Part shown: in pieces, positions 11,282 to 49,779 of the stretch | Layout: each line of letters begins with the position of its first letter | Position numbering within the stretch: the stretch's first letter is position 1 | Assembly: GCA_900469445.1 (NCBI GenBank) | Contig: UBXM01000002.1 | Span: forward strand, 1 to 64,000 | DNA length: 64,000 nt | Origin: Hyphomicrobiales bacterium | GTDB taxonomy: Bacteria; Pseudomonadota; Alphaproteobacteria; Rhizobiales; Rhizobiaceae | Reading direction: 5' to 3' | Made by a program: the position numbers and the translations under genes | The notes under the pieces: model-generated | Told to the model about the DNA's origin: nothing | The model's input: only the letters and a program-made list of their open reading frames with translations | Databases searched by the model: none

Positions 11282-12004
11282 ACAAAACTAACCTGCGCAT
11301 AATCGATTGGCCAGAGTGCTTACGACTCATCGTAGATTTCAAAGGAGACGAGGCGGAGACAACCTTGCGGACGCGCTTCGGTGCCTCATTCATAGATCAA
11401 TTATGGCCGCAGCAGCTTTATGGGTAGACCAACACTCAGGATGAGCCCAAGAGGCTCTCTCGCGCGCAGTCGCGGGCGTCACCTAAGCGTTTAAGGGCGC
11501 ATTTTAGGTTATTATTGTTCGGAACTGGATCTTATGCGGTCGGTTTCGCGGGCGCCGGATTTACCAATAAGCTCGTGGTCTGGCTGCCACTGGCTCTTCG
11601 GTGCCTTCCGTTGTCGCTGCCCATCGTTTGCCTGCGGGGGTCTTGATCTACACAGTGCGTTATGTTGGGCTGGACCCACTCCCCAATTCATCAATGCCCC
11701 ACAGAACGCCTGACCGGTTTCGTCGTGATCATAGCCCTCATAGGCGCTGGGCCGAAGAAAGATCGGCGCTTCTCGTTCGAACGATAGGGATACCTGGAGA
11801 GCATCGTGCAGCCGAGGAGCATCAAATGTTCGGCTTCGATCGGCCGGAGATGACCCGATTTTGAGTTCCTGCAAAAAGTTACCCTTTTGGAATTGCTGGC
11901 AGACAAGGTTCGATCTGTTCAAGACCTTAAACCGCGGATCCACCGTCCAGTTCCTCTCCACTAAAGGCAGGCGACGCCTTTGAGCCGCCGACCTCTACAT
12001 AATT
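11282..12004. other. gene-poor stretch between two histidine kinases
   Basis: About 720 bases. A 149-codon minus-strand frame (11512-11961) has no ribosome site and no family resemblance that I can see, and other frames overlap it. It may be degraded coding sequence. The promoter of the hybrid kinase is presumably in the part next to 11281. Confidence 0.35.
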
Positions 12005-13492
12005 CTACGAGACAGGCGATGTGGCCACAACATCTTCAGCCGGTATTCTGATCGAGCACGTTACACCGGATGGAGCGAAATCGATTTGCGCGCCGCCGGC
12101 GGGTGAATATTTCAGGCTTCGTTCGATGACGGTATGGCCAAACCCTCTTCGCGTCGGTGGCGAGACTTCAGGTCCTCCGCGTTCGATCCAACGGATCAGA
12201 CGGCTTTCACCTTCGGGCTCCGAATCAAGTTGCACCGCGATCGTTCCGCTTTCGCTTGTTAAGGCGCCATATTTGGCGGCATTTGTCGCCAGCTCGTGAA
12301 TTATCAGCCCAAGCGGGACCGCTGCTCGCGGCAGAATCTCCACATCGCTGCCATCTATCGAAAATCTCCGATGATAGTTTTCAACAAAAGGTGCAAGTTC
12401 TGCGGCCACTAGTTCACTGAGACGGATAGACGACCAAGACCGATCCGCAAGAATATTGTGAGTGGCCGCGAGCGCATGGATGCGGCCAGAAAATGACTCA
12501 CGAAAACCTTCGATGGTGTCTTCGGTTGACGCGGTCCGGTTAGATATCGACACGACGAGCGCGAGGGTATTTTTCACCCGATGATCGAGTTCGCGCATCA
12601 GAAGAAGTTGCTGGCGTTCGGCAGACTTTCTTGCCGAAAGGTCAACCAAGGTCGCCACTGCACCTTTCGTCTGGTTTTCAGCAACGCGCAAAGGAGCCGC
12701 ACTGACGAGAACGTCTCGGGATATGCGGCCTCGCGGCGCCAATGCTTCAACCCCTTGGACGGATTGGCCAGCTACAGCGAGCGCAATGAAATCGTCTCCC
12801 TGCATCAACCCGGTGGCTGCTGAAAATTCCAGACCGAAGGCTTCACCAAAAGACAGACCGACGGGATCACAGGATGCTAGGGTCATGGCTGCCGCATTTG
12901 CGTGTGATACGATGCCATCGATATCGGTAACGATAACCGCCTCGGCAGCGGAGGCGAGAATAGCGAGCGCCGTTCGTTCCGCCTCCTGACTTCGTTCGGC
13001 CTGGATGCGGTCGGTAATGTCGGTAAAAGTGACCGCGACTGCATCGTTGACGCCAAGCTGGAGAGCGTCGGAATTCAGCAAAAGGCGGCGCAGGTGACCA
13101 GAGACGCTGATCTGTACCTCGCAGGTGGTCTTTTGTTCGCGAGCCGCGCGCAAAGCGTTATTGACGATCGCGCGATTTACGTCATCGAAGGCGTTCCAGA
13201 ACCCGCTGTCGGCAACGGATGGTTTGGACACATCAAGCAGCGCGCACAAGGCCCCGTTGCAATAGAGGAGGTTCCCGTGGCTATCGAAAGCAGCAGCTCC
13301 AATGTCCATTGCCTCCATAAAGGACCGGTAGGAATCGTTGCCATCGAGCGTGAACACTTCGTCGGTGACAGAGCTCTTTCGTATCACAAGAGCATCAATC
13401 TCGCCCTCACGTATGGCGCGGATTATGTCTTCCGCCTCCTCCAACCGCCGATAGAGTTCATCTTTCGAAAGGTCAGGCCTGCCATTGCTCAT
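12005..13492 (-). CDS. PAS-domain HWE/HisKA_2 sensor histidine kinase of the kai operon
   Basis: A 495-aa soluble kinase. The N-terminus ([18 protein letters not shown]) is typical of kinases associated with kaiBC loci. Two PAS domains follow (about 45-160 and 175-290). The kinase core has the phospho-acceptor in [14 protein letters not shown], an N-box [11 protein letters not shown], and the W-x-E / GGP / RRGFG signatures of HWE-type kinases. It overlaps kaiB by 4 bases, so translation is coupled. Known rhizobial and Rhodopseudomonas kaiBC loci also carry a kinase; it probably takes output from, or gives input to, KaiB/KaiC. No cognate receiver is adjacent. Confidence 0.85.
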
Positions 13493-13794
13493 TCGTTTTC
13501 GCTTACCTGAAGATTGACCAGCACCTTTTCCGAATTTGAAAGGTCGCCAATAATTTTTCTGATCGGAGTAGGCAATTCCCGCACGAGGGTCGGGATTGCA
13601 ACAATATTGTGCTCGCGCGCAAGCTGGGGAGATTTCTTTAGATCGACAACCTCAATTACGTATTTTCCTGGCAGATTCTCGGTGCAAATCTTCTCCAGGT
13701 TTTTGATTGCAGCCAAGGACTTAGGCGTCTCACCAGCAACATAAAGGACGAGTTTCTTGGGGCCGCGCGCGTCTTGTGTTTCCGAGGTTTCCAT
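13489..13794 (-). CDS. kaiB: KaiB-like protein
   Basis: A 101-aa protein of the KaiB thioredoxin-like family. It has the [20 protein letters not shown] first strand-helix, the [11 protein letters not shown] segment and the [12 protein letters not shown] loop that matches the KaiB signature. In cyanobacteria KaiB switches fold and binds KaiC. Here there is no kaiA, so a full three-protein oscillator is not expected. It follows kaiC by 7 bases and overlaps the kinase gene by 4, making a tight operon. A timer-like or stress-related role has been proposed for such KaiBC systems in non-cyanobacteria. Confidence 0.92.
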
Positions 13795-13801
13795 GATCGT
13801 C

Positions 13802-15499
13802 CTAACCGTCTACGCGACGGCTTTTCTCCATTTGCTGTTGATCCATTGCGGATTGCTCGAGATACACCTCTTCAGCCTCCGTAACAGTGTTTAATTCAAT
13901 CTCATCAGCATCAAGCTCAGCCTGGAGTGCTTCAATCTGTGCCAACGCCTTGCGACGGCGATGCTTGATGCGCTCGGCCTGTCTTGTTACTTCAGCACGC
14001 CTTTCGACTTCGCTCCGTCGCGCTTTCGCCTCTTCCGACTGCCGCATGGATCCGGTCAGAGCCCTGCCATCGCCAATATAGGGCGCAAGCAAGGAAATTC
14101 CCGTATTGGACATGACGAATTCGCGAACCTGATTTGAGTGGGATAGCCCGCGTGCTTTAAGCAGGTAAAGTTCGCGATTGAACTCTCCACCTATCTCTCG
14201 GTTTAGTAGCAGGATCCATGCATCCATCAGCGACGAAAGGCCGACATCGGTCTCCGTTGAGCCCGTTTGTGAATGCATCAAGTGGGTGAAGACTGCTGTT
14301 GTCCCGCGAGATTTCAGAAAGTCGACCATCCGAAGGAGCATCGATTGCACTTCGAGCTGCTCACCACTTCCCATGAAAGCCGAAATAGGATCCAGCACAA
14401 CGATTGATGGCTCTACACGGGCGATTTCACGCAACATGACCGCCAGATGCATTTCGAGGCTGTAGAAAGTCGGCCGGGCCGCGACATAATGAAGAAGACC
14501 GCCATCTATGTGCTTTTGAAGGTCAGTTCCAATCGACCTCATGTTTCTCACTGTCTGATCGACCGATTCCTCGAAGGAGAAATAGATCGCTTTTTCGCCA
14601 CGTTCACATGCAGCCGCCGCGAATGAGGCCGAAAGAGAGCTCTTACCCGACCCTGCGACACCACTCAGCAATATGCTCGTGCCGCGGTGGAAGCCGCCGC
14701 CAGACAACATAGCGTCCAGGTCTTCGACACCGGAGGAAATACGCTCGTCCGATACTTTGTGGTTGAGGCCAAGACTGCTGATCGGAAGTACGCTAAACCC
14801 ATCCTGGTCTATCAGGAAGGGCACCTCATTGGTGCCATGCGCCGTGCCGCGGTACTTGACGATCCGAAGACGTCGCGTCGAAATTTGATTTTGCACGCGA
14901 TGGTCGAGAAGGATCACGCAATCGGAGACATACTCTTCTAAGCCTTGGCGCGTTAACGAGCCATCGCCGCGTTCACCCGTTATAATTGTCGTTAATCCCT
15001 TGTCCTTGAGCCAATCGAACAACCTGCGAATTTCAGCACGCAAAATGGCAGGGTTAGTAAAAGCCGAAAAAAGGCTCTCAATTGTATCAAGAACGATCCT
15101 TTTTGCTCCGACCTGATCAATGGCAAGCTCAAGCCGAAGAAATAGACCTTCGAGGTCGTAGTCACCAATCTCCTCAAGTTCGGACGGATCAATCGAAATA
15201 TGTTCAAGGTAGATTTTTCCTTGATCCACTAGCTGCTCGACATCAAAGCCTAACGAATTAACGTTGCTTATGATATCTGACGGACGTTCTTCGAAAGTCA
15301 CAAAGACGCCGGGCTCGTCCATGTCACGCGCACCATTCAACAGGAACGTCGATGCAAAAAGGGTTTTGCCGCAACCTGCGGTACCGCAAACAAGAGTGGG
15401 ACGACCCGTCGGCAAACCGCCAAGTGTCAACTCATCGAAACCGACGATGCCCGTGCGAGATTTGCTGATACCTTCCAAAACAGTCATTCGCCTATCCAT
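13802..15499 (-). CDS. kaiC: KaiC-like double-domain ATPase
   Basis: About 565 aa with two RecA-like domains. CI has the P-loop GTAGCGKT (about 39-46) and an EE pair in FEERP (70-71). CII has the P-loop GVAGSGKS (about 280-287) and EE in FEESV (310-311). The CII phosphorylation site aligned with S431/T432 of cyanobacterial KaiC reads Ser-Ser (about 422-423). Both phosphorylatable positions are kept, with Ser for Thr. A C-terminal Arg/Lys/Glu-rich coiled coil (about 490-560) replaces the cyanobacterial A-loop tail. The start at 15499 is preferred for its AAGG site; ATGs at 15487 and further upstream are possible. It is the first gene of kaiC-kaiB-kinase. Confidence 0.93.
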
Positions 15500-15947
15500 C
15501 ACCTTACATAAGTGCTCAATATCCCAGAAAATCAGTCGCGGCAATTTGCGAAACCGTACCATCACGAAAACAAGCGGATTAAATTGGGCGGCGCGTGACG
15601 CCGCACAAGAAGGGTGGATCGCTCTCCCGTCCTCAAGCCGACTGTGGCGGCATTCGGCAAGGATTTGAGTTTAAGCTCTACAGAGCCGCCGACGGTCACT
15701 GATTGGCTTGGCGGTAACGGTTACGACAGATCTCAATAGGGACTTGGGCCGAGTAGATTTTCCAGATTTTGTCTGAGATTAGAAGTTCCCGCCCAAGGAA
15801 TGCTGGTCGACGGTTCAGTTTCCTTCAAGCCCTTCACAGTGTCGGTGTCGCTTTTCATTCGTGCTGCGGATACGAAAATCGGTGATGTTCAGCACGAATT
15901 GACGAGATAGATCGACTTCACTCGAGGAAGACGCGCTTCAACATTAG

Positions 15948-16415
15948 CGCGAAATGCCCGTCCCGGCGAGGCGATAGGCAACCAGGAAAGAGGACTTGCC
16001 AGGGTGGTTGATGTCGAGGATGGCAAAGTCGAAAACCTCGGTTTCGATTGCCTTCAGTGCCGGTTCGACCCGCAGGGCCGTCCTACGACCTGATGACTGA
16101 GATCCAATACGGCATCCTAGATCAGCACCCGCCGCCGGCGGTTAATAGTTTGAAGCGCATTCTAAGTGTTGAAGATGATATTGTTGTAGGCAGGGCTCCC
16201 TTCGGCCAGCCCGACGTTCATGACGTGCAGTTAAATTCCGCCACTTCCGGCCAGCCTTTCCGGACATTGCTGCCCAAGAGGTCGGGATGGCCGCCGCCTG
16301 CGAAAATTGGATACGCATCGTTGTCGATCATTGCGCCTGTATCGCCCAAAAGCATGACGATTGGGACAGGCGGCTGAAGGATAAGCGCCGCGTTGCCCGC
16401 AGGCAAGGCGGCCAA
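15948..16415 (-). pseudogene. remnant of a PAS and receiver-domain signalling gene
   Basis: Two fragments on the minus strand read as parts of a signalling protein. At 16415-16218 a PAS-like stretch (PVPIVMLLGDTGAMIDNDAY, then FAGGGHPDLLG and GWPEVAEFN) resembles the N-termini of the intact kinases at 8315-11281 and 48319-49779. At 16080-15948 a receiver fragment reads FDFAILDINHPGKSSF. Nothing continuous links them, and stops interrupt both sides. The middle kinase region is missing, so this is the trace of a deleted hybrid kinase or of two genes. The 450 bases between kaiC and this remnant hold nothing else that I recognise. Confidence 0.65.
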
Positions 16416-16504
16416 TCTTCGACGCGGCCAACCGCTGACCGGTCATACTCGCGAATGATCGATCCCTGCCGCATTGCCACCATGGCCTCAAAAGCGCAAA
16501 GAGC

Positions 16505-19072
16505 TCAGCTTCCCGGCTGCTCGACGTTGCGCTTCGCTACGAACGCCTGTTCAAGAGCAAGTGCCAGAGTACCGTGCGCCACTGGCTTACGGACCACTGG
16601 AACGTGCGACAGCCCATCGGGAATGCTTACACTATCCCTATAGCCAGTAGCGAAAACGTAAGGTATCGCCAGTTTCTCCAATTCAAGGGCGACGGTTTCC
16701 GAAGTCGTGTTTCCAAGGTTCAAGTCCAGGACCGCGCAATCGGGCCTCTTTTCCTTTAGGGAGCGCAGGGCCGTGAACATTGTGGCGGCGACCCTAACGC
16801 TGGCAGCCCCCAGCTCGCGGAGCAGTTCTTCCGTGTCTATGGCGATCAGCGACTGGTCCTCTACAAGAAGGACATCAAGCTCGCTGACTGGCAGAAGCGG
16901 GACGGGCTGCTCGTCTTCGAAATCTGCGGATCGAGCCGCCACGGCTCGCAAGTGCGCTTTCGGGAGTACGATCCGTGCCTTCAGTCCCTCACGGGCGAAC
17001 TCGATATCGGCCGTCCCGTCGAGGTCATGCGTCACCGTTTTCTCGATAAGCTTAGACCCAAAGCCACGGCGCGTGGGTCTTGAGACTTCTGGACCACCGC
17101 TCTCGGTCCAATGCAGTTCGCAATCGCCGTTGTCGTCAAGCACCCAAGATATCTTCAGGCTACCAGAAGGGACCGACAGGCTACCGTATTTAGATGCGTT
17201 GGTCATCATCTCGTGGAGCAGCAGGGCGAACACGCCGAACGCCCGTTCGGTGAGGCCCACGGGTCTGCCCTCAATCATGATGCGGTCCGGCATCTGCGCG
17301 AAGCGATGCATGCCTGCCTCTGCCTCGATAAGGTCGCGAAGCTCGCCGCCCTCAGTGCCGGAAAACGACTGGTCGTGGGCGAAAGACAGCGCCCTGAGGC
17401 GGCCCTCAAACGATTTGGCGTAGTCATCGACTGACTCTGCGTTGGCTCCCGTCTGCGTGGCTATCGATTTGACCAGGGCCAGGATATTCTTCACCCGATG
17501 GTTCAGCTCGGAATTCAGCAAGACCCTCTGACTTTCTGTCTTCTCCCGACGCTCTTCAGTCGCGTCGTTGTGGGAAAGCATGACATCGCGAACATAGCTT
17601 CTGATCGAGTCCGCGACGACAATATCCGCGCTTGTCCAGGGCAGAGATTTGAAGCGAACGTCTTCCCGCCAGGTATCGAAACTGCCACGTGGGCTCAGGC
17701 GTTGCTGGTTGTCGGTCATCAACTCATGTTTGCGCGGCTCGCCCGCCCATTCGATCTGGTGAGCTTCCTCGCTCCGGAACATCACGAGATAGTCGGGCGA
17801 CGAGACGGAGATCGGGATTGCGATCAGCCCGGCGACCCGTGTTCCATAGGCCTTGCCTAACTCCTCTCTTAAAGATTGTGTATGCCAGATGCTTCTGCCC
17901 GCCTTCTCCGATATGCGCACCATCAGCTTGGGTACAAGTTCCTCCGCCGGTGTCACCCCAAAGGATGCCCATTGTCCGCGTGACCATAGGCCCGCGCCAT
18001 CGCTGTCGATGAGCGACGAGAATTCGCGAAGCCTTTCGCGCAGTGTGATCTCGACTGGAACCTCCGGGTCGACACCGTCGATGATAGCGTCAAGCTGGCC
18101 ACGCGTGGCGGCCGCGGACACCTTTTGCGTCCTGTTTTCAATTGACGTCACGTGGAGCGAGAAATATTGCGCAAAGAGTTCGGCGGCGATCCTGAGTGGG
18201 ATCGAGAGGTGTTTCGGCGTGTTGTGATGGCAGGCGATCAAGCCCCAAAGTTCCCCGTCCACGACAATGGAAATCGACATAGACGCAGCGACGCCCATGT
18301 TGCGGAGGTACTCGCAGTGGATCGGAGAAACGCTGCGAAGATGGGAGAACGACAAGTCCACGGCCGCGTCGCCTTCCTTGATGTCCGGAACAAGTGGGAC
18401 CGGCACGAAGGACGCATCACCGATGACGCGCACCCAGTTCTTCACGTAGAGTTCTCTCGCCTGAACCGGAATGTCGGAGACCGGGAAGTGCTGGCCTAGA
18501 AAACTCCCGAGCGAAGGGTCCTTGGCTTCGGCGACGACGCGACCCGCGCCGTTATGCAGGAAACGGTAGACCATAACACGATCGTAGCCGAGCATGGCGC
18601 GAACGAGACGTGCCACGGCCTTGAATAGCGGATCGAACTGCCTATAGCTGTCGACACGACGCACCAGTGACTGTGTCAGATGAAGCGCGACCTCACTGTC
18701 CGCGATCGAAGCGGGTTTCTCGAATTCAAGGTAAGTGCGCTCTTTGTAACGGTGAACCGTAATGTCGGCAGGATCAACGCTGTCTCCCACTTTTGCCTTT
18801 AGAACGACACCAGCGGTCTGACCGGTTCCGGCGCGGGCAATCGCATTGCCGATATCGTGGGCGACGGAATTGCCGACCACGTCAGAAAGTTCGGCGCCGT
18901 GATAGTCCTGATTGGTGTCTCCGAGGAACTCGGCGATGTTCTGCGACACGAACTCGACCAGTCCGTCCTCAGACAGAACGATCATTGCACCGTGGGGCTG
19001 GATGCTTCCTGGAATATGGATCGGCTCGCGATCGCAGTTCGTAAGATCAACCTTCGATCTGTCGTACACCAA
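16505..19072 (-). CDS. bphP: bacteriophytochrome with HWE kinase and fused receiver (Agp2-type)
   Basis: An 855-aa red/far-red photoreceptor kinase. Cys13 lies just before REPIHIPGSIQPHG and is the expected biliverdin attachment residue. Next come PAS (about 15-120), GAF (about 140-300, with SDIPVQARELY and SPIHCEYLRNMGV chromophore-pocket motifs) and PHY (about 320-500). An HWE kinase follows with the acceptor His in NSELNHRVKNILALV, N-box HEMMTNASKYG and GGPEVSRPTRRGFG. The C-terminal receiver (about 735-845) has LVEDQSLI and a phospho-Asp in CAVLDLNLG. This order matches Agrobacterium Agp2, a bathy phytochrome; whether this one is bathy cannot be read here. No heme oxygenase gene is next to it. 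Confidence 0.93.
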   Translation of the reverse strand: MVYDRSKVDLTNCDREPIHIPGSIQPHGAMIVLSEDGLVEFVSQNIAEFLGDTNQDYHGAELSDVVGNSVAHDIGNAIARAGTGQTAGVVLKAKVGDSVDPADITVHRYKERTYLEFEKPASIADSEVALHLTQSLVRRVDSYRQFDPLFKAVARLVRAMLGYDRVMVYRFLHNGAGRVVAEAKDPSLGSFLGQHFPVSDIPVQARELYVKNWVRVIGDASFVPVPLVPDIKEGDAAVDLSFSHLRSVSPIHCEYLRNMGVAASMSISIVVDGELWGLIACHHNTPKHLSIPLRIAAELFAQYFSLHVTSIENRTQKVSAAATRGQLDAIIDGVDPEVPVEITLRERLREFSSLIDSDGAGLWSRGQWASFGVTPAEELVPKLMVRISEKAGRSIWHTQSLREELGKAYGTRVAGLIAIPISVSSPDYLVMFRSEEAHQIEWAGEPRKHELMTDNQQRLSPRGSFDTWREDVRFKSLPWTSADIVVADSIRSYVRDVMLSHNDATEERREKTESQRVLLNSELNHRVKNILALVKSIATQTGANAESVDDYAKSFEGRLRALSFAHDQSFSGTEGGELRDLIEAEAGMHRFAQMPDRIMIEGRPVGLTERAFGVFALLLHEMMTNASKYGSLSVPSGSLKISWVLDDNGDCELHWTESGGPEVSRPTRRGFGSKLIEKTVTHDLDGTADIEFAREGLKARIVLPKAHLRAVAARSADFEDEQPVPLLPVSELDVLLVEDQSLIAIDTEELLRELGAASVRVAATMFTALRSLKEKRPDCAVLDLNLGNTTSETVALELEKLAIPYVFATGYRDSVSIPDGLSHVPVVRKPVAHGTLALALEQAFVAKRNVEQPGS

Positions 19073-19354
19073 CGTCGGCTACTCGCTTTCATACCGGGGT
19101 CGTAGCAGGTAAGCCAGACCAAGCCTTGCCAAAGAGCACCATGCCTATGCGGCGGGGTCGACCGACATTTAGTGCAATCAAACTCCTTAGCCACCCTCTG
19201 TCCAAAATAGTACCTGAGGACTGCTCCGCGCCGCCTGCCGTGTACTCGCCGACAAACGTCATGTCCGTTGGCCACGAATGCGATCGTCGCCGGTGGAAGC
19301 AGGACACGCATTTGACTTATAGCCGAGGAAGCGGACGGGCAAGAGTTTAAAATA

Positions 19355-20887
19355 CTATCGATGTTGGTATTTTTCTACCAGTTTATCAGGTTTTGTGCGT
19401 GCACGATCGCCGACGCCGCGTTCTTTCGCCCAAAGGATCGCGGCACCGCGGCGGTTTACGCCAATCTTGCGATAGAGTGACGAGACATGGTTACGCACGG
19501 TGTAGCTCGACAAACCGAGATGCTTGCTCATCTGCTGATCGTTCATGCCTTGGCAGATCAGCGCGAGGATATCCTGCTCGCGCTCCGTAAGGTCCGAGAC
19601 CCCCACTCCGGTGCTGGTGTCCGGGAGAAAAGACCTCTGGCGTAGGGCGGCTAGTTTTTCCACAATGCCGCGACTGAACCAGGAGGTGTCGGCCATGACC
19701 GACTCGATCGCCGACATCAGCTCTTCCTCGGATCGCTTCCGATCCGTGATGTCCTGTATCACCATCATGATGCAGGGAATGTCGTCAATTTTAATCTCAT
19801 CCGATGACAGAAGGCAATCCATTAACGCGCCATCACGCGACTTCAGGCGGAAGTCGATGTTGCGCAGCCTGCCATCCTTCAGCAAGGCCGTCTCGACAAC
19901 CTTTTGTACGTCCTTGTCGAGCCACATATCGAGGTCCGCTTGGCTTCGTCCCATTACCAGTTCCTCGGGCGATCCGATAAGCTTGAAAAATGCGGCGTTT
20001 GCCTCGATCACTTCGAAGTTGTCTGTCCGGACTATAACCGTTGGGACGGGCGACAGGCCGAAAGCCTTGGAGAAACGCTCCTCGCTTTGCTTCAGGACCT
20101 GCTGTGACTTTTTAAGTGGTTCAACATCCGCAAAAGAGAACAGCATGCACGGCTCACCCGATACGTCGATCGGTTCACCCGCGACGATAACGGGTTTTGC
20201 TCCATGCTCCGGCAATGGGATGATCGCTTCCATCTGCGGAATGGTGCGACCTTCCTTGAGCTTTGCCAGCGCTAGTTCCCGTTTCTCTGCAAACGCCAAC
20301 ACGTCGATCTCGTAGGTGCTCTTACCGACCAGGTCGCTACGACTGTACCCAGTCATCTCCAGGAAACCGGGGTTGACCCGCACGTAACGGAGATCGGAAA
20401 GCCTGCAGATCACCGCGGGCGCGGGATTGGCGTTGAACGCCGCTTCAAAACGATCCTCGGCTTCGTACCTGCGTGTCTCGTCCTGGATGATCCAAGCGAC
20501 ATAGGCATTCTTATCGTTCTCTGACACAATGAAACACCTGGAGTCGTGCATCCAGCTTCGATCGTCGCCCTCGGTTGGCCGTACCTCCAACGTGACTTCG
20601 GCCGCGCTCCCTGTTGTGATAACACGATCGACAGGGTGGTCGCAGTCTCCGACCTTGTGATTGTTTCGGTATTTGAGGTCGAAGCGCGAGCGGTACTCCG
20701 AAAGGGACGCCCCAAGCTGCTTCTGGTCGTCGAGGCCATGCATGGTCAAAGCCGCATCGTTCGCCCAGAGCAAATTGCGTTCAAGATCGAGGAGGATCAC
20801 CCCTTCCTTGAGCCCGGCAACGAGCTGGTGCACCTGTATGCGATCCTGTTTGGTATCCAACGCAAGCCTCCTGCCAACGGACTGCAA
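19355..20887 (-). CDS. PAS-PAS-PAS LuxR-type transcriptional regulator
   Basis: A 510-aa cytoplasmic regulator with three PAS domains (about 20-140, 145-260 and 275-390). A short linker leads to a LuxR/NarL helix-turn-helix (about 430-495) with LTEREQDILALICQGMNDQQ and the recognition helix SSYTVRNHVSSLYRKIG. No kinase or receiver domain is present, so a sensed signal acts directly on DNA binding. It lies 280 bases upstream of bphP on the same strand and may act in the same light or redox circuit. The cofactor of the PAS domains is unknown. Confidence 0.88.
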   Translation of the reverse strand: MQSVGRRLALDTKQDRIQVHQLVAGLKEGVILLDLERNLLWANDAALTMHGLDDQKQLGASLSEYRSRFDLKYRNNHKVGDCDHPVDRVITTGSAAEVTLEVRPTEGDDRSWMHDSRCFIVSENDKNAYVAWIIQDETRRYEAEDRFEAAFNANPAPAVICRLSDLRYVRVNPGFLEMTGYSRSDLVGKSTYEIDVLAFAEKRELALAKLKEGRTIPQMEAIIPLPEHGAKPVIVAGEPIDVSGEPCMLFSFADVEPLKKSQQVLKQSEERFSKAFGLSPVPTVIVRTDNFEVIEANAAFFKLIGSPEELVMGRSQADLDMWLDKDVQKVVETALLKDGRLRNIDFRLKSRDGALMDCLLSSDEIKIDDIPCIMMVIQDITDRKRSEEELMSAIESVMADTSWFSRGIVEKLAALRQRSFLPDTSTGVGVSDLTEREQDILALICQGMNDQQMSKHLGLSSYTVRNHVSSLYRKIGVNRRGAAILWAKERGVGDRARTKPDKLVEKYQHR

Positions 20888-47953: not shown

Positions 47954-48319
47954 TTAACGCTCTGTAATGCCGAGCTCAGCCAGGTTTCGCGCCACTGCTT
48001 CTTCGGAAACAGGCTTGGACAGAAACCGCGCCTTGGCAGGCAGTGCACCTTGCGAAGGTGAATATCGACCGGAAATCACGGCGATCGCGCATTCCGGGCG
48101 TGTTTCCGCGACATGACGGGCTAGTTCAAGCCCATTCATTGAACCTGGCATGTCGATGTCCGTCACCAAGGCATGGATCAGTGGGGTCTGCTCCATAATC
48201 TCGATTGCCTCATCTGCATTGCCCGCCTGCAGAACTGCGAAACCTCGATCGATCAAGATATCGACAAGGTCCATTCGAATGAGCCCGTCGTCTTCAACAA
48301 CAAGAATAGTGGTACTCAT
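47954..48319 (-). CDS. single-domain response regulator
   Basis: A 121-aa receiver-only protein. The acid pocket is Asp10/Asp11, the phosphorylated Asp54 is in LVTDIDMPG, and Lys102 in LSKP is the conserved lysine. There is no output domain, so it acts as a phosphate shuttle or sink, or by direct protein contacts. It overlaps the HWE kinase stop by one base and is clearly its partner. In alphaproteobacteria such kinase plus single receiver pairs often feed the PhyR/EcfG stress pathway; that link is inferred here. Confidence 0.9.
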   Translation of the reverse strand: MSTTILVVEDDGLIRMDLVDILIDRGFAVLQAGNADEAIEIMEQTPLIHALVTDIDMPGSMNGLELARHVAETRPECAIAVISGRYSPSQGALPAKARFLSKPVSEEAVARNLAELGITER

Positions 48320-49779
48320 TAGTGCTCCTTCTGAAAGCTTTCCAGGTCAGCAGTGATGAAGCATCTAAGCCCGTGTGGTTCGTAGACCATCTTCACGTTG
48401 CTGTTTACGGTGCCATTCAACCCAGCCGAAATAAGCCGCATTCCCGATCCTTGCGTCGATGGACCGGTGATTGCCGGTCCGCCGAGCTCTTTCCATTCCA
48501 TCTCGAACCGGTCTCTCGCGTTTCCGGCAACTCGCCAACTGATATCGATGCTGCCCTCAGGCGACGAGAGCGCGCCATACTTCAGGGCGTTTGTCGCCAG
48601 CTCATGCAAAATCAGCGAAACCGACAATGCCGGGCGTGACCCGACTTTGAGATTTGGGCCGACTATGCGTATCCGCGGCCGGGCGGGATCGTCATGCAAT
48701 GTGATCATCTGATCTACGAGTTGACGGACGGTCGAGGCTCCGCGACCTCCTTCCAGAATCGTATCGTGAGCATCGCTCAAAACTGCAATTCGCTCTGCTA
48801 GTCGTTTCCGGGCGGTCGAGATATCAGGGGCGTTTCGCAAGGTCTGAGATGCGATAGCCTGCACCATGGCAAGCTGGTTTTTGAGGCGATGGCCCAGCTC
48901 GTGGGAAAGCAACGCCTGCCGCGCCTCTTCTGCGCGCAGCTCCGTCACATCGCGAGCCTGAACCAAGATACCGTTTATAGCAGCTGTTTCGTTTCGCATT
49001 GGCTGGTAGACGAGATCGATCAGCCGACGCTGCATCTCGCCCTCTGGACCACGGTTTAGCTCGATCGGCAACGCCCGGGCGACAAAGGCTTCACCGGTTC
49101 GGTATACGTCATCCAAAATGCCGATGAATCCCTGCCGCACAACTTCAGAAACAGCTTCTGCGACGGTCTTGCCGATGATGTCGCGGCTTGCGCCGATCAT
49201 CGAATAATATTCTTCGTTCGCATATTCGAACCGGTGATCAGGGCCCGCCAGCATCGCGATCCCACCGGGACTAAGTTCGAAGACCTGCATGAACCGGTCC
49301 CTCAGCGTTTTTTCCGCCCGGCGGGTCATCACCTCAGTCGTTATCTCGGTGCAGGCGCAAAACATCCCGAGCACGGTGCCCCAAGGATCTCGAACCGGCG
49401 TATATGAAAACGCAAAATGGGTCTCCTCCGGATAGCCGTTTCGATGCATCGTGAACTCGATGTCATCCATCGATGTGCCGGCACCGCGATAGGCAGCAGT
49501 GATGATAGGCTCAACGTCCTCCCAAATATCGTGCCACAGCGATTGGAAGGACTGGCCAAAGGCCTTCGGATGGCGAGCTCCGCACATGGCAGCATAGCCA
49601 TCGTTGTACAAGGTCACCTGTGACGGTCCCCAAACGATCAGCATTGGCTGTAGGGAACCTAGCATGACGCTTGTCAGTGTCTTCAGTTCGACACTCCATT
49701 GATCCATCGCCCCCAATGGTGAGGTGGACCAGTCATGATCACGGAAGAGCCGGTGGCAATCCGGGTTGGCAAGCGGCAT
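48319..49779 (-). CDS. PAS-HWE sensor histidine kinase
   Basis: A 486-aa soluble kinase. Two PAS domains (about 20-150, starting RDHDWSTSPLGAMDQWSVEL, and about 165-285) precede an HWE kinase core with the acceptor His in SHELGHRLKNQLAMVQ. The N-box HELATNAL and the W-x-E / GGPAITGPSTQGSG motifs are present. There is no membrane segment. Its first PAS domain is like the N-terminus of the hybrid kinase at 8315-11281 and the remnant at 16218-16415. It is first in a two-gene operon with the single receiver. Confidence 0.9.
   Translation of the reverse strand: MPLANPDCHRLFRDHDWSTSPLGAMDQWSVELKTLTSVMLGSLQPMLIVWGPSQVTLYNDGYAAMCGARHPKAFGQSFQSLWHDIWEDVEPIITAAYRGAGTSMDDIEFTMHRNGYPEETHFAFSYTPVRDPWGTVLGMFCACTEITTEVMTRRAEKTLRDRFMQVFELSPGGIAMLAGPDHRFEYANEEYYSMIGASRDIIGKTVAEAVSEVVRQGFIGILDDVYRTGEAFVARALPIELNRGPEGEMQRRLIDLVYQPMRNETAAINGILVQARDVTELRAEEARQALLSHELGHRLKNQLAMVQAIASQTLRNAPDISTARKRLAERIAVLSDAHDTILEGGRGASTVRQLVDQMITLHDDPARPRIRIVGPNLKVGSRPALSVSLILHELATNALKYGALSSPEGSIDISWRVAGNARDRFEMEWKELGGPAITGPSTQGSGMRLISAGLNGTVNSNVKMVYEPHGLRCFITADLESFQKEH

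Follow-up and report, generated by a model that had tools for sequence, protein, structure and literature searches.

A module of about 50 residues at the N terminus of a histidine kinase is found almost exclusively right behind the genes of KaiC2-KaiB2 timers, and may therefore be how these timers pass their signal on. The kinase is encoded by the third gene of a three-gene timer operon, kaiC-kaiB-HWE kinase, in a 64,000-nucleotide stretch of DNA from a soil bacterium of the Rhizobiaceae (positions 1 to 64,000 of contig UBXM01000002.1, assembly GCA_900469445.1), referred to here as the window. The KaiBC hourglass has been reconstituted in vitro, and the separable module described below is a mark of the partner protein in almost all of the KaiC2 operons examined. 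It gives a direct handle on hourglass output, and the exchanged protein bodies to which it is attached predict what each timer controls. The open-licence literature yielded no account of such a module as a general receiver of KaiC2-KaiB2 timers.

Linkage of the module to KaiC2 loci

When the PAS-PAS-HWE kinase of the kai operon (12005..13492, minus strand) was aligned with its partners from other kai operons, residues 12-62, encoded at 13307..13459 of the same strand, proved to be its best-kept part. Among the best 80 of 537 KaiC2 relatives of one query in a named genome collection (L060-L139, with flanks of up to 10 kb, many of them shorter), the gene directly after kaiB carries this module in 78 loci, 12-207 nt (median 42) past the kaiB stop. 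According to record titles, the hosts of these 78 loci are alpha-, beta-, gamma-, delta- and zetaproteobacteria, Bacteroidetes, Planctomycetota, a Nealsonbacteria bin and Methanoperedens archaea. The two loci that lack it are L127, whose contig ends right after kaiB, and L105, which is considered below.

Within the profile searches made of whole genomes, where a copy of 80 bits or more was counted as strong, the module was specific to these operons. Five strong copies were found in 385 genomes of the class and four in 151 genomes of the family (the window's copy enters both counts), all of them in kaiBC operons. The module was also present in 36 of the 37 genomes behind the loci, each copy mapping by its coordinates to the kai locus; the extra strong copies stand in tandem in the same operon (G569) or in a second kaiC-kaiB-kaiB operon (G561), and the second match in G558 is weak and confined to the helix. 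Weak matches in two other genomes (G443 and G332, 21-23 bits) were taken as chance. In the class and family sets, a strong module goes with a KaiC that is 52-76% identical to that of the window; no strong copy was found in the remaining genomes with KaiB, where the KaiC matches have 28-39% identity. Loci with a distant KaiC have the order kaiB-kaiC and no module match in L049-L052 and L054-L057, and the order kaiC-kaiB in L017, L029 and L031, which are likewise missing from the module matches of the class and family searches; L053 (G150), of the same distant kind, has a partial, weak module match directly behind kaiB.

The loci also vary in the number of kaiB genes. Two or more stand in tandem in 52 of the 80 KaiC2 operons, with four in L101, and most of the later copies are poorer matches to the window's KaiB. 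A full kaiC-kaiB-kaiB-module operon is present in metagenome bins of the archaeon Methanoperedens (L083, L090, L107 and L133).

Conservation, exchanged bodies and predicted shape

In an alignment of 86 module proteins (A4, from which the weak L053 and L086, a repeat of L045, were left out), the module holds 2.64 bits per column, compared with 1.72 for the first PAS domain, 1.17-1.38 for the rest of the protein and 1.94 for the best 50-residue stretch elsewhere. Its best-kept residues in the window's kinase are G30 and D33. The bodies attached to it are diverse: at E 0.001 or better, the 86 proteins include 31 with an HWE domain, 36 with HisKA, 23 with a receiver, four each with GGDEF and EAL, two with a sigma-54 activator domain and one with HD, and all 86 have a PAS match. 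Exchange extends to the window's own genus, in which nine fetched operons (L210-L218, three of them contigs of L061-L063) combine one kaiB with an HWE body, as in L217, and in two more (L219 and L220) tandem kaiB genes are followed by the same module, here joined to a HisKA-HATPase-receiver body. Several Bacteroidetes loci encode a short module protein of 232-241 residues; the gene after it encodes a HisKA kinase in L085, L087 and L089, and L082, L098, L100 and L103 have unrelated-looking genes in that place.

Two structure models, one of the window's kinase and one of the 237-residue protein of L098, agree on a helix and a two-strand hairpin leading into a PAS domain; in the window's kinase the helix is predicted at residues 10-28 and the strands at 34-38 and 44-48, after which the PAS domain begins. 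The top fold match of the full-length kinase is the Brucella kinase LOV-HK (6ph4). A search for the module among known domains gave weak matches only, the best having E 0.0018 in Pfam, 0.0084 in NCBIfam and 0.062 among PDB sequences, and identification with any of them was rejected.

Leader helices are common in kinases, and the models run the module directly into the first PAS domain. Both points would be expected if the module were a mere conserved N-terminal cap and dimer helix of that PAS domain, kept by inheritance of the operon as a block and contacting neither Kai protein. The module is, however, conserved more strongly than this PAS domain, it persists where the remainder of the protein has been exchanged, within a single genus too, and no strong copies outside kaiBC operons were found in the searches made. 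We therefore regard a simple PAS cap as improbable.

The nearest precedents for a kinase N terminus that reads KaiC are the KaiB-like domain of SasA and the RtaNt domain of KaiC-linked kinases (PMC3164672). The window's kinase has no match to the KaiB family, and its modelled helix and hairpin followed by PAS differ from the thioredoxin-fold N terminus of the SasA type. RtaNt was described from pairs of kaiC and histidine kinase genes without kaiB, and was compared with SasA and with KaiB (PMC3164672). The present module, in contrast, is about 50 residues long, with a predicted helix and hairpin, and is encoded behind kaiC-kaiB; it is set apart from RtaNt by description rather than by sequence comparison.

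The kai operon

By its sequence traits, the operon belongs to the KaiC2/KaiB2 hourglass type, for which purple bacteria provide earlier examples. Over 557 residues that take in the coiled-coil tail, its KaiC shares 73% identity with the orthologous KaiC of Cereibacter (Rhodobacter) sphaeroides 2.4.1. Like the hourglass proteins, it is a double-domain KaiC with two serine phosphosites, is encoded in a genome where KaiA is absent, and bears a C-terminal extension of about 50 residues, which aligns with the C. sphaeroides tail to residue 583. The Ser-Ser phosphosite is a published mark of KaiC2 (PMC5520375, PMC10076222). The best PDB matches are 8dba and 8fwi for KaiC and 8fwj_M for KaiB. Plasmid pB of C. 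sphaeroides 2.4.1 likewise bears kaiC-kaiB-HWE kinase; the KaiB of that strain (WP_002725098.1) is the one used in the published hourglass reconstitution (PMC10076222), and the kinase (WP_011331301.1) scores 65 bits for the module.

Family cut-offs set the proteins apart from the canonical cyanobacterial clock. The window's KaiC exceeds the cut-off of NCBIfam PRK09302, 'circadian clock protein KaiC' (739.8 vs 408 bits), and falls below that of the cyanobacterial equivalog TIGR02655 (355.4 vs 546.25 bits). KaiB passes the Pfam KaiB cut-off (88.8 vs 27 bits) and falls below those of TIGR02654 (88.4 vs 145.3 bits) and PRK09301 (93.4 vs 110); the kinase is well above the HWE_HK cut-off (91.2 vs 22.8 bits).

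The original prediction, made from the sequence of the window, described this operon correctly. All five genes that it had named in this region (the three kai genes, a phytochrome gene and a luxR gene) lie on the minus strand and were correctly read, with their predicted domains confirmed. The tight spacing is exact, with 7 bases (13795-13801) between kaiC and kaiB (13489..13794) and a 4-base overlap (13489-13492) between kaiB and the kinase gene, transcription running in that order. KaiC retains both P-loops, one of them GTAGCGKT, as well as both EE pairs (positions 92-93 and 332-333) and the Ser-Ser phosphosite (Ser444-Ser445). The absence of kaiA extends to the whole genome, which has no KaiA match although the Synechococcus elongatus control was positive. 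The kaiC frame is open from 13802 to 15565, where it begins with GTG; since M27 aligns with the first residue of the C. sphaeroides protein, translation probably begins at 15487, making the gene 13802..15487. The kaiB of the operon is the sole KaiB match genome-wide, and more KaiC-like genes are present in the same genome (C69:75537-76925 and C61:72337-73173).

Operons of this kind are patchily distributed. KaiB exceeds its cut-off in nine of the 151 family genomes and 14 of the 385 class genomes, and within the genus 12 genomes out of 57, among them that of the window, have a KaiC2 scoring at least 890 bits. The GC content is 0.48 in kaiB, 0.52 in kaiC and 0.56 in the kinase gene, compared with 0.56-0.59 in five neighbours, and kai operons are plasmid-borne in C. 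sphaeroides, Sinorhizobium sp. B11 and Rhizobium sp. BG4. The low GC of kaiB and kaiC and the plasmid location form the picture expected if the operon moves laterally.

The arrangement itself is already published, and the operon is not new as a kind. The order kaiC-kaiB-PAS/HK has been reported for Rhodopseudomonas palustris and R. sphaeroides (PMC4794148), and a 2011 survey noted kinases or GGDEF/EAL proteins after kaiC or kaiB in general (PMC3164672). The window shares with the R. sphaeroides hourglass (PMC10076222) and with the R. palustris and R. sphaeroides operons (PMC4794148) its gene order, Ser-Ser phosphosite, C-terminal tail, lack of KaiA and kinase in third place. An output module for these systems is not described in the available portions of either paper, and in those of PMC10076222 the terms histidine kinase, operon, sensor, downstream and transcription do not occur. 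Bradyrhizobium ORS278 has the same order in its kaiC-kaiB-HK-RR operon (PMC3899966), with a receiver gene after the kinase gene; in the window, the stretch between the kai kinase gene and the next gene (11282-12004) holds one scanned frame, of 149 residues, without a family match.

Proposed role of the module

We think it probable that the module is a dedicated receiver of the KaiC2-KaiB2 state that gates the kinase, the kai operon being a laterally moving hourglass with a kinase output and the neighbouring phytochrome and luxR genes a separate unit. Under this proposal, KaiC would autophosphorylate without KaiA by means of its coiled-coil tail and be reset by KaiB binding and the ATP/ADP ratio, as others have found for the R. 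sphaeroides orthologues. The kinase would be the output of the timer: its module (residues ~12-62) and first PAS domain may dock on KaiB, on the CI ring of KaiC or on both in one phosphorylation state, as the near-exclusive linkage and the conservation suggest, and docking would gate the HWE kinase. The kinase might in turn phosphorylate receivers, PhyR-type or FATGUY-type ones being the likeliest, which is the weaker part of the proposal. It also seems fairly probable that this single module of about 50 residues serves the KaiC2-KaiB2 timers of both bacteria and archaea as their general receiver, docking on KaiB or KaiC. If so, one module has been joined to HWE and HisKA kinases, cyclic di-GMP enzymes and sigma-54 activators alike, and KaiC, KaiB and the module form the part that is kept together.

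The direction of signaling could also be the reverse, with the kinase as an input whose PAS domains sense redox or another cue and whose module adjusts KaiBC. It has been suggested that the R. sphaeroides kinase relays a redox signal to KaiBC (PMC5520375), and the PAS match in all 86 scanned members fits a sensing role. However, bodies that range over kinases, GGDEF-EAL proteins and sigma-54 activators have the look of exchangeable outputs, and the KaiBC timer already answers to the ATP/ADP ratio itself (PMC11372060). An input role accordingly strikes us as unlikely, if somewhat less so than a PAS cap.

Several observations weigh against the module as a timer receiver. It is not indispensable, since L105 has kaiC-kaiB in a genome from which the module is absent altogether. 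It was found in five of the 14 class genomes with KaiB over the cut-off, and therefore tracks KaiC2, not KaiB generally. Many loci, the archaeal ones included, are metagenome bins in which single assignments may be wrong, and some of the 80 are close relatives or repeats; L086, for example, is the contig of L045, a partial source of the first profile. The counts of five and four strong copies come from searches that scored at most 16 (class) or 43 (family) candidates per genome, so that stray copies could escape; the search of 37 genomes scored all. Confidence in the modelled hairpin is moderate, with a mean predicted local distance difference test score (pLDDT) of 63-72 and 67-69 for the blocks. 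Four of 27 module members weakly match the Pfam family LysR_substrate (best E 0.0018), which was taken as chance. Finally, kai was rejected as a target of the stress sigma factor EcfG, there being no GGAAC-N15-19-GTT within 500 bp before kaiC; EcfG-like sites precede two of 31 alphaproteobacterial kaiC genes, within chance (a first-order model gives 0.8, and 43 of its 200 runs reached two).

The phytochrome and LuxR genes

Upstream of the kai operon lie bphP (16505..19072, minus strand) and luxR (19355..20887, minus strand). The HWE kinase and fused receiver claimed for the phytochrome were borne out, its full layout being PAS_2-GAF-PHY-HWE-receiver, as were the three PAS stretches of LuxR, which also has a GerE domain. 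The fused receiver of BphP carries the motif PYVFATGY. The best solved relative of BphP by sequence is 6g1y, which we take to be Agp2, and BphP has the PAS-GAF-PHY core, HWE kinase and fused receiver that presumably define an Agp2-type phytochrome. Further phytochromes in the genome are 45% (C58) and 36% (C69, a partial match) identical, and a heme oxygenase is encoded as well.

The claim that kai, phytochrome and LuxR form one signaling block is not supported: in the congeners examined kai and luxR-bphP stand apart, and remnants of a kinase gene and a receiver gene lie between them here. Eight congeners have a bphP at least 72% identical to the window's, and KaiC2 is also present in four of them; kaiC and bphP are on different contigs in three of these four (G624, G591 and G594) and about 17 kb apart in G612. 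Identities between G624 and the window are 95.6% for KaiC, 94.1% for KaiB and 93.1% for the kinase, against 85.0% for LuxR and 82.8% for BphP. The pair luxR-bphP is side by side in G624 and also in G623. Among the 80 KaiC2 loci, with their flanks, only one (L068) contains a phytochrome gene. In G599, bphP is followed by an intact HWE kinase gene and a receiver gene, both of which are broken between bphP and kaiC in the window. The kinase remnant (16230..16499, minus strand) is an N-terminal part, 50% identical over 96 columns to the HWE kinase L224:7186-8736, and the receiver remnant (15953..16128, minus strand) is spread over two frames, its best piece being 60% identical over 42 residues to L224:6837-7178. 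The separate units in congeners and the broken genes here make the closeness of kai and bphP look recent, and it says little about joint function; bphP-luxR would be a separate light-sensing unit brought beside kai by rearrangement. Elsewhere in the window, 47954-49779 holds a receiver-kinase pair whose kinase is 71% identical to the one behind bphP in G594 (L226).

A possible link to the general stress response

The original prediction had also placed these genes next to a stress regulon, and in a sequence sense this is so. The motif GGAAC-N{15,18}-GTT, resembling EcfG sites, occurs 25 times in the window versus 6.2 expected, a count reached in none of 100 shuffles, and 16 of the sites have a 17-base spacer, compared with about two for each other spacer from 10 to 25. 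Seven of the 16 GGAAC-N17-GTT sites lie at most 60 bases upstream of listed genes, among them genes for DUF982, SnoaL-like, PRC-barrel, DUF4142 and NDH2-type proteins. Requiring CGTT at the end removes the enrichment in the window (four vs 2.2 expected, with 18 of 100 shuffles reaching four), and genome-wide GGAAC-N16/17-CGTT shows no excess over the reversed control (64+67 vs 76+67). The local signal thus holds for N17-GTT only, the genome-wide count having been made for the CGTT form. A Mn-catalase frame has one GGAAC-N17-GTT site inside it, near its start.

Alphaproteobacterial HWE kinases often phosphorylate PhyR and FATGUY regulators (PMC5964349). The kai kinase is of the same HWE catalytic class and differs from those kinases in its predicted coupling to KaiBC. 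PhyR is encoded above cut-off in the genome, and by analogy a stress link of the kai kinase through PhyR is plausible. On the same contig, 3.3 kb past the window and some 50 kb away from kai, the gene for a single-domain receiver with the motif PFVFATGY (C48:67315-67707; L058:3316-4210 corresponds to C48:67315-68209) is convergent with a small gene for an extracytoplasmic function (ECF) sigma factor that has a PhyR_sigma2 match. This receiver is a candidate target of the kinase, and may mark a second stress-response node on the kai contig. Among the receiver loci of the genome, the FATGUY motif was found in two phytochromes and in this single-domain receiver (L058), and not in L002-L005, L007, L008 or L059; the receivers beside the kai kinases of L217, L046, L047 and L080 likewise have no such motif.

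Taken at full strength, the original prediction joined kai, phytochrome and LuxR in one light- and time-gated stress block acting through PhyR. The physical closeness of the genes, the receiver motif fused in the phytochrome, the EcfG-like sites of the window, the PFVFATGY receiver beside an ECF sigma gene, the genomic heme oxygenase and PhyR, and the resemblance of the kinase fold to LOV-HK all lean that way. Set against them are the separation of kai from luxR-bphP in congeners, the gene debris between bphP and kaiC, and the absence of an EcfG-like site before kai, bphP or luxR, which together leave such a block very improbable. In Methylobacterium, KaiC proteins have a part in temperature-dependent UV resistance (PMC8069551, PMC12573494). 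On the far side of the kai operon, a 153-residue open frame at 7847-8308 matches GGDEF and EAL only in part and has the look of a truncated gene.

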